Source: Elusimicrobiota bacterium (lineage in GTDB: Bacteria > Elusimicrobiota > Elusimicrobia > Elusimicrobiales > UBA9959). From it: a stretch of DNA of 64,000 nucleotides. Below, one piece after another: positions 24,122 through 54,523 of the stretch. The stretch covers positions 139,011-203,010 of the forward strand of contig JAGVVD010000052.1 in assembly GCA_019135865.1 (NCBI GenBank), read 5' to 3'. Position 1 is the stretch's first letter; every line of letters begins with the position of its first letter. Both the position numbers and the translations under genes were made by a program. The notes beneath the pieces were generated by a model that saw only the letters and a program-made list of their open reading frames with translations, ran no database searches and was not told the DNA's origin.

Positions 24122-24165
24122 CATAACTGGCAGTCTTGACAAATGACTGCCAGTTATGTTATCCT
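24122..24165 (+). promoter_or_regulatory. Hsp20 operon promoter inside a CIRCE-like inverted repeat
   Basis: Perfect 14 bp arms CATAACTGGCAGTC (24122-24135) and its reverse complement (24145-24158) are separated by nine bases, TTGACAAAT, that contain the -35 TTGACA (24136-24141). A -10 TATCCT follows at 24160-24165 (18 base spacer). The nine-base spacing is that of the HrcA operator CIRCE, but the arms are a different sequence. Confidence 0.85.
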
Positions 24166-24172
24166 ATATACA

Positions 24173-24193
24173 GGACAGGCGGACCGCCTGTCC
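24173..24193 (+). promoter_or_regulatory. 5' leader hairpin of the Hsp20 operon
   Basis: Perfect 8 bp stem (24173-24180 with 24186-24193) and five-base loop at the predicted 5' end of the message. It leaves the GAGGTGAT ribosome binding site (24211-24218) free, so it looks like a 5' stabilising stem more than a simple ROSE-type thermometer. Confidence 0.55.
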
Positions 24194-24222
24194 GGCAAAG
24201 AACACCAAAAGAGGTGATATCT

Positions 24223-24657
24223 ATGAACCGCAAGGACATAGCTCCCCTCGAGAAAAGGACGGCGGCCTCCGGGGTTTTCGACAGCCTCGGCAGGGTCTTC
24301 GAGGACCTTTTCGACCTCGCGCCGTCCGGCCCGAACGCCCCGCAGATCGACATCAAGGAGACCGAAAAGTCGGTCGAGGTGCGCGCGGCGCTGCCCGGGG
24401 TGGAGAAAAAGGACATAAATATCGACCTCACGGAGAACGCCCTGGCGATCTCTTGTGAGCGTCGCGAAGAGAAGGAGGAGAAAGGCGGGGGCGGCTGGCT
24501 CCGCCGCGAGCAGAGCTACGGCCGCTTCTACCGCTCCTTCACCCTTCCCGCGCCCGTCAGGACGGGCGAGGCGAAGGCCGAGTACAGGGACGGCGTGCTG
24601 AAGCTGACCATGCCCAAGCAGAAGGCCGGCAAGGGCCGCCGCATCGATGTAGAATAA
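24223..24657 (+). CDS. Small heat shock protein Hsp20, first of pair
   Basis: A 144-residue ATP-independent holdase. The alpha-crystallin domain runs from about PQIDIKETEKSVEVRAALPGVEKKDINIDL to AEYRDGVLKLTMPK, with the typical GVEKKDI and DGVLKL motifs. It lacks an obvious C-terminal IXI motif. The start is the ATG after GAGGTGATAT; an upstream in-frame reading would begin inside the promoter. The second Hsp20 gene follows after 15 bases. Heat or stress control through the operator at 24122-24158 is inferred. Confidence 0.93.
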   Translation: MNRKDIAPLEKRTAASGVFDSLGRVFEDLFDLAPSGPNAPQIDIKETEKSVEVRAALPGVEKKDINIDLTENALAISCERREEKEEKGGGGWLRREQSYGRFYRSFTLPAPVRTGEAKAEYRDGVLKLTMPKQKAGKGRRIDVE

Positions 24658-24672
24658 GGAGAGTGACCTTAT

Positions 24673-25113
24673 ATGACCGGAGAAGTGGCGAAAATGGAGA
24701 AGGACCTCGCGAAAATGAGGGAGAACATCTATAACACGGTGGACGCCTTCCTGGGCGCCCGCCGGCCGCAGGCCGACACGGATTACGCGGGAGAGTGGAC
24801 GCCCGACGCCGACGTCACCGAGGACAAGGACGGGTTCACGGTCTACGCGGCCCTGCCAGGGGTTAGGAAGGAGGACGTGGAGACGGAGATAAAGGAGAAC
24901 GTTCTGGTGATAACCGGCCGTCGCGAGGCTAAATACGCCGCGGAGGAGGGCCTGGTGCGGCAGGAGATACCCGCCGGCCGCTTCTACCGCGCTTTCAAGA
25001 TAGGCGTGCCGGTGAAGTCGCAGGAGGTGAAGGCTTCGATGAAGGACGGCGTGCTCGAGATAAGGCTGCCCAAGTCCGACGAGGCCAAGCCCAACAGGAT
25101 AAAGATAGACTGA
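24673..25113 (+). CDS. Small heat shock protein Hsp20, second of pair
   Basis: A 146-residue paralogue of the preceding gene. The N-terminal helical part (EVAKMEKDLAKMRENIYNTVDAFL) is charged and different from the first copy. The alpha-crystallin domain has GFTVYAALPGVRKEDVETEIKENVLVITGRREA and SMKDGVLEIRLPK. The C-terminus NRIKID resembles the IXI oligomerisation motif that the first copy lacks, so hetero-oligomers are plausible. AAGGAGAG precedes the ATG; a terminator ends the operon. Confidence 0.93.
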   Translation: MTGEVAKMEKDLAKMRENIYNTVDAFLGARRPQADTDYAGEWTPDADVTEDKDGFTVYAALPGVRKEDVETEIKENVLVITGRREAKYAAEEGLVRQEIPAGRFYRAFKIGVPVKSQEVKASMKDGVLEIRLPKSDEAKPNRIKID

Positions 25114-25126
25114 ATAAGGACGGATG

Positions 25127-25164
25127 AAAAAAAGGCCCCGGCCCGGAAAGCCGGGGCCTTTTTT
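25127..25164 (+). terminator. Terminator of the Hsp20 operon
   Basis: GC-rich hairpin AAGGCCCCGG / CCGGGGCCTT with a run of six T, and A-rich on the other side. Confidence 0.9.
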
Positions 25165-25269
25165 CCCACGGGGCGCAGCGGCCCGGCCGCAGGTAGCGTC
25201 CGCGCTATTCCCCGGCACCCCAGATAATTACTAGTATCGTGTTCTCCGCCGCCCGGCGGCGGAACGGAT

Positions 25270-54467: not shown

Positions 54468-54487
54468 CAGGATCGGGCTGAAACGAA

Positions 54488-54523
54488 GAAGGCCGCGGGT
54501 TCCGCACCCGCGGCCTTCTTATT
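54488..54523 (+). terminator. Terminator of clostripain-like copy D
   Basis: 13 bp perfect stem (54488-54500 with 54506-54518) followed by TTATT. Confidence 0.82.

Follow-up and report, generated by a model that had tools for sequence, protein, structure and literature searches.

A predicted, lineage-drifted CIRCE-type operator of HrcA over the -35 box of an Hsp20 operon

In the window, the whole 64-kb stretch of DNA analysed, a two-gene Hsp20 operon is preceded by an inverted repeat whose central part (24127-24153, forward strand) is, to judge from sequence comparison, very probably a lineage-drifted CIRCE-type operator of HrcA. It lies over the -35 box and is predicted to repress the Hsp20 operon until heat shock relieves it with titration of GroEL.

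The inverted repeat and its promoter

The repeat CATAACTGGCAGTC-TTGACAAAT-GACTGCCAGTTATG occupies 24122-24158 on the forward strand, as do all the features of the operon, and has perfect 14-bp arms (24122-24135 and 24145-24158) separated by exactly nine bases. The first-pass annotation had reported these arms, the nine-base gap and a -35 box in the spacer, all of which hold. The -35 box TTGACA (24136-24141) and the -10 box TATCCT (24160-24165), 18 bases apart and with a TG before the -10, constitute the sole promoter-like match in the hsp20 upstream region. The predicted operator is the variant core CTGGCAGTC-N9-GACTGCCAG. Downstream are two Hsp20 genes at 24223-24657 (Pfam HSP20, E 3.7e-21) and 24673-25113 (E 2.8e-20), and a terminator-like stem with a T run at 25128-25165 ends the operon. 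Extrapolated from shuffles, the chance expectation for perfect repeats of this length with a spacer of 3-20 is about 0.03 per 64-kb window. The only others of such length in the window are the terminator-like stem at 25128 and a repeat at 54486-54520, whose arms measure 14 bp or more around a short loop and which may also be a terminator.

Relation to CIRCE

Aligned on the nine-base gap, CTGGCAGTC agrees with the textbook half-site TTAGCACTC at six of nine positions and differs at positions 1, 3 and 7. The textbook half-site itself is not present at the hsp20 operator, while the 9-bp half-sites and the nine-base spacer are. The arms had been called unrelated to CIRCE, a description that does not survive comparison of CTGGCAGTC-N9-GACTGCCAG with TTAGCACTC-N9-GAGTGCTAA, which share six of nine bases per arm and an identical spacer. 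Common to this system and the known CIRCE/HrcA regulon are the 9-bp inverted arms, the exact nine-base spacer, the core GCA..TC, the location of sites at hrcA, groES, clpB and hsp20 promoters, and an hrcA operon with grpE and dnaK. In contrast, arm position 7 is G here and not C, and the hsp20 site has C at outer position 1 and G at outer position 3, holds the -35 box inside its spacer and is perfectly symmetric for 5 bp further outward.

Departures of the same kinds from the consensus are on record both for established CIRCE sites and for motifs from ChIP-Seq of HrcA (PMC545781 Table 8; PMC4989314). The outer end CTGG is known among accepted CIRCE sites (PMC545781 Table 8), and the groESL site of Desulfovibrio vulgaris is CTGGCACTC-N9-GAGTGCCAA (PMC545781). 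The ChIP-Seq motif of Waddlia chondrophila HrcA, TAGCA-N15-TGCTAA, resembles the present sites in that only the outer GCA/TGC is fixed, with arm positions 7-9 free in the published consensus (PMC4989314), but the hsp20 outer end here is TGGCA and G predominates at position 7. Since each departure is either common to the regulon or known from relatives and accepted CIRCE sites, the hsp20 site is best read as a CIRCE variant.

The regulon and its regulators in the same genome

The whole genome was scanned with the pattern YTRGCASTC-N9-GASTGCYAR, open to C or G at arm position 7 and allowing up to three mismatches. Matches in total were at chance level (16 versus 23 for the reversed control), and the claim thus rests on the best of them. 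All four matches with at most one mismatch belong to hsp20, clpB, hrcA-grpE-dnaK and groES: the sites of hsp20 and clpB (TATAACTGGCAGTC-TTGACATTG-GACTGCTAGTTATA) have none, and those of hrcA (TTAGCAGTC-AGCTGTTGG-GATTGCTAG) and groES (TTAGCAGTC-GGCCCCAAA-GAGTGCTAT) have one each. Two further matches, a second groES site and one at C31:88799, have two mismatches. GCAGTC replaces GCACTC in at least one half at all four best sites. At hrcA and groES the GCAGTC half is that of hsp20 and the second half is hybrid or imperfect, the groES site pairing the variant half TTAGCAGTC with the canonical half GAGTGCTA. The altered motif of the hsp20 site recurs at clpB, hrcA and groES. The first-pass annotation had also held that hrcA together with a normal CIRCE at groE would mark a separate regulator. 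The reverse was found, as groES has the hybrid site and the fully canonical core GCACTC-N9-GAGTGC is absent from the whole genome.

The hrcA gene is present (TIGR00331, an NCBIfam equivalog, 270.5 bits against a cut-off of 197.2) and shares an operon with grpE and dnaK, both assigned by reading their translations. CtsR is likewise a heat-shock repressor with sites at clp and hsp genes, but its operator consists of heptad direct repeats and not of a spaced 9-bp palindrome. CtsR gave no match in the genome, a weak result given that the search also failed to detect the control, Bacillus subtilis. RpoH was not found above the TIGR02392 cut-off in the genome, only weaker sigma-70 relatives below it.

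Among the hrcA promoters of this genome (L003, 2580-2660) and of relatives (L082-L107), many combine a full site near +1 with one lone half-site, TTAGCASTC, which stands exactly 11 bases ahead of the -35 TTGACA.

Conservation within the phylum

Across the 285 phylum genomes compared, families f3, f5-f8 and f10 usually have GCACTC-N9-GAGTGC, while GCAGTC or mixed sites occur in the window's own family (f1) and several others. The GCAGTC form also stands upstream of hrcA in many relatives. Conservation in relatives, whose lack the first-pass annotation had counted towards refutation, is seen across the hsp20 and clpB promoters of the window's family, where TTGACA lies in the operator spacer in 13 of 13. 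These promoters form a graded series, TTAGCAGTC..GAGTGCTAA, TTAGCACTC..GACTGCTAA, CTAGCACTC..GAGTGCCAG, CTAGCAGTC..GACTGCTAG and CTGGCAGTC..GACTGCCAG, through which the site shades into near-textbook CIRCE with its position in the promoter unchanged. Arm positions 2, 4, 5, 6, 8 and 9 are invariant in all 26 half-sites of the family, and position 7 is G in 22 and C in 4. The extra symmetry ATAA / TTAT is kept on the left side at most of the 13 sites and on the right side at few. Perfect symmetry beyond the 9-bp half-site is thus probably for the most part a feature of near relatives and unlikely to be a separate signal.

One relative, G094 (L040, L128), has a second CIRCE-like element in its hsp20 and clpB leaders, at the inferred transcript start. 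At hsp20 this is TTAGCAATC-N9-GATTGCTAA, in the same place as the leader hairpin of the window.

The GCAGTC form in other bacteria

When one genome per species was searched for exact TTAGCAGTC-N9-GACTGCTAA, at least 117 stretches matched, of which 80 were listed. Among those 80, the next gene directly downstream is groES in 34 and hrcA in 14 (48/80), and for many of the remainder it resembles another heat-shock gene at its N-terminus. One downstream gene each matched Cpn60, Clp_N and, below threshold, Hsp20; others look like HtpG, by reading of the N-terminus only. Record titles name Chloroflexota, Clostridia, Patescibacteria, Acidobacteria and Deltaproteobacteria, among others. With groES, hrcA and heat-shock-like genes downstream of the listed sites, the GCAGTC form is, on this comparative evidence, a widespread variant of the HrcA site. 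A literature text search with TTAGCAGTC returned no HrcA work among the 20 matches listed of 133, and a search for HrcA in the suspected phylum, Elusimicrobiota, found none.

In Xanthomonadales the downstream gene is sigma-32-like (one was checked: NCBIfam sigma-32, E 8.7e-18). Exact TTAGCAGTC-N9-GACTGCTAA sites lie at the start of an rpoH-like gene in 14 stretches (L141, L152, L158, L170, L174, L179, L181, L182, L204, L205, L208, L209, L216 and L218), no more than about 35 bases from the start or overlapping it. These are mostly from Xanthomonadales, with HrcAs that have Gly25, and the arrangement suggests HrcA control of sigma-32 in such genomes.

HrcA residue 25 and arm position 7

At the column of the DNA-binding domain aligned to Gly25 of Bacillus subtilis HrcA, P-V-G-S prevails among HrcAs with canonical operators and P-V-S/A/P-S among those with GCAGTC operators. 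The columns of this domain were scanned across 159 HrcAs whose operator was clear, with three groups as strata, and the residue-25 column ranked first (CMH chi-square 43), a value to be read knowing that the residue was first spotted by eye, that the third group was picked for its operator and that kin sequences are non-independent. In an overlapping set of 143, HrcAs with Gly had strict C in 46 cases and another base in 18, and those without Gly had strict C in 18 and another base in 61. A tree-aware test, with a tree built from HrcA minus its DNA-binding domain and 10 independent pairs, gave 4.5 pairs that agree with expectation and 0.1 that oppose it (median p 0.125), which alone is not significant. 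Columns 57, 64 and 47 also scored high in the column scan and failed on independent tree pairs.

A strict residue-to-base code was ruled out, as canonical CIRCE is kept with 18 of 35 non-Gly HrcAs of one phylum, Gly is found in two exceptions, family f2 from the order of the window and the Xanthomonads whose GCAGTC site lies at an rpoH-like gene, and the tree-aware test was not significant alone. What these alignments suggest, short of proof, is a tendency of Gly25 toward strict C at arm position 7 and of Ser/Ala toward G or A. Co-evolution, in which a change of Gly25 to Ser/Ala (sometimes Pro) relaxed position 7 from strict C to G/A several times in bacteria and so made the altered heat-shock operators of this lineage possible, is a tentative idea to which we give somewhat less than even weight. 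The only solved HrcA structure retrieved by sequence search was 1stz, from Thermotoga.

Leader hairpin and alternative explanations

Folding of the leader (24172-24260) gave -29.5 kcal/mol (z -3.7), with a hairpin GGACAGGCG-gac-CGCCTGTCC at 24173-24193. The hairpin described earlier at the start of the message is real and lies at about the inferred +1, but its stem is 9 bp and not 8. Among the leaders compared it is kept only in the sister genome G104, with a single change in the loop. At 24203-24216, an upstream CACC can pair with the GGTG of the first Hsp20 ribosome site, and this pairing is kept in G104 with a longer loop. The strong hairpin and the pairing, which is weak but found in 60-nt folds of both genus members, would fit mainly post-transcriptional control of the Hsp20 operon by the hairpin or an RNA thermometer, with the inverted repeat secondary. 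We consider this very improbable: the hairpin does not cover the ribosome site, the weak pairing does not appear in the 89-nt fold, no Rfam family matched the leader at threshold, and the leaders of other relatives differ while the operator is kept. An RNA thermometer was ruled out on the lack of an Rfam match at threshold and the instability of the ribosome-site pairing between folds. The simplest guess is that the hairpin stabilises the 5' end.

The annotation had left a choice between an altered HrcA site and an undescribed heat-shock repressor. The latter would recognise the extended ATAACTGGCAGTC arms of the hsp20 and clpB sites, with HrcA acting on hrcA and groES, and it draws on the hsp20 sites of this genome and G104 (at clpB, at least the left half), where CTGG is present and the symmetry reaches further than at hrcA and groES. 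However, the same promoters elsewhere in the family carry TTAG or CTAG, some with GCACTC or GAGTGC halves that make near-textbook CIRCE, the right-hand extension is not kept beyond near relatives, accepted CIRCE sites include some with CTGG outer ends (PMC545781), and no other candidate regulator was identified. We reject a separate repressor as improbable because of the graded intermediates in relatives and the variant sites shared at hrcA and groES. A chance palindrome, for which nothing speaks beyond the general risk of a single repeat, can be practically dismissed: apart from its low chance expectation, the repeat recurs at clpB, and conservation across the family already refutes it. The altered HrcA site is the reading supported, with hrcA present and the altered motif at hrcA, groES, clpB and hsp20 shading into CIRCE in relatives, and an undescribed repressor is not needed to explain these observations.

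Proposed mechanism and implications

On this reading, the drift comprises C to G at arm position 7, and an outer end CTGG for TTAG at hsp20 and at one or both clpB halves. The promoter appears to be an ordinary sigma-70-type one straddled at its -35 by the operator, and HrcA bound there would block RNA polymerase from the Hsp20 operon. Control through titration of GroEL is established for HrcA of Bacillus subtilis. Upon heat shock, unfolded protein would occupy GroEL, HrcA would lose GroEL support and thereby its activity, and the Hsp20 operon would open alongside clpB, groES and hrcA-grpE-dnaK. Because hsp20 and clpB carry the CTGG form where hrcA and groES of this genome carry TTAG, the former possibly have a different affinity or, in principle, a second reader.

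CIRCE would here have drifted in step across a whole regulon, and the association between arm position 7 and residue 25 may offer a single-residue handle on HrcA specificity. Scans based on the textbook consensus would overlook control of hsp20 and clpB by HrcA in this lineage, as well as comparable sites elsewhere.
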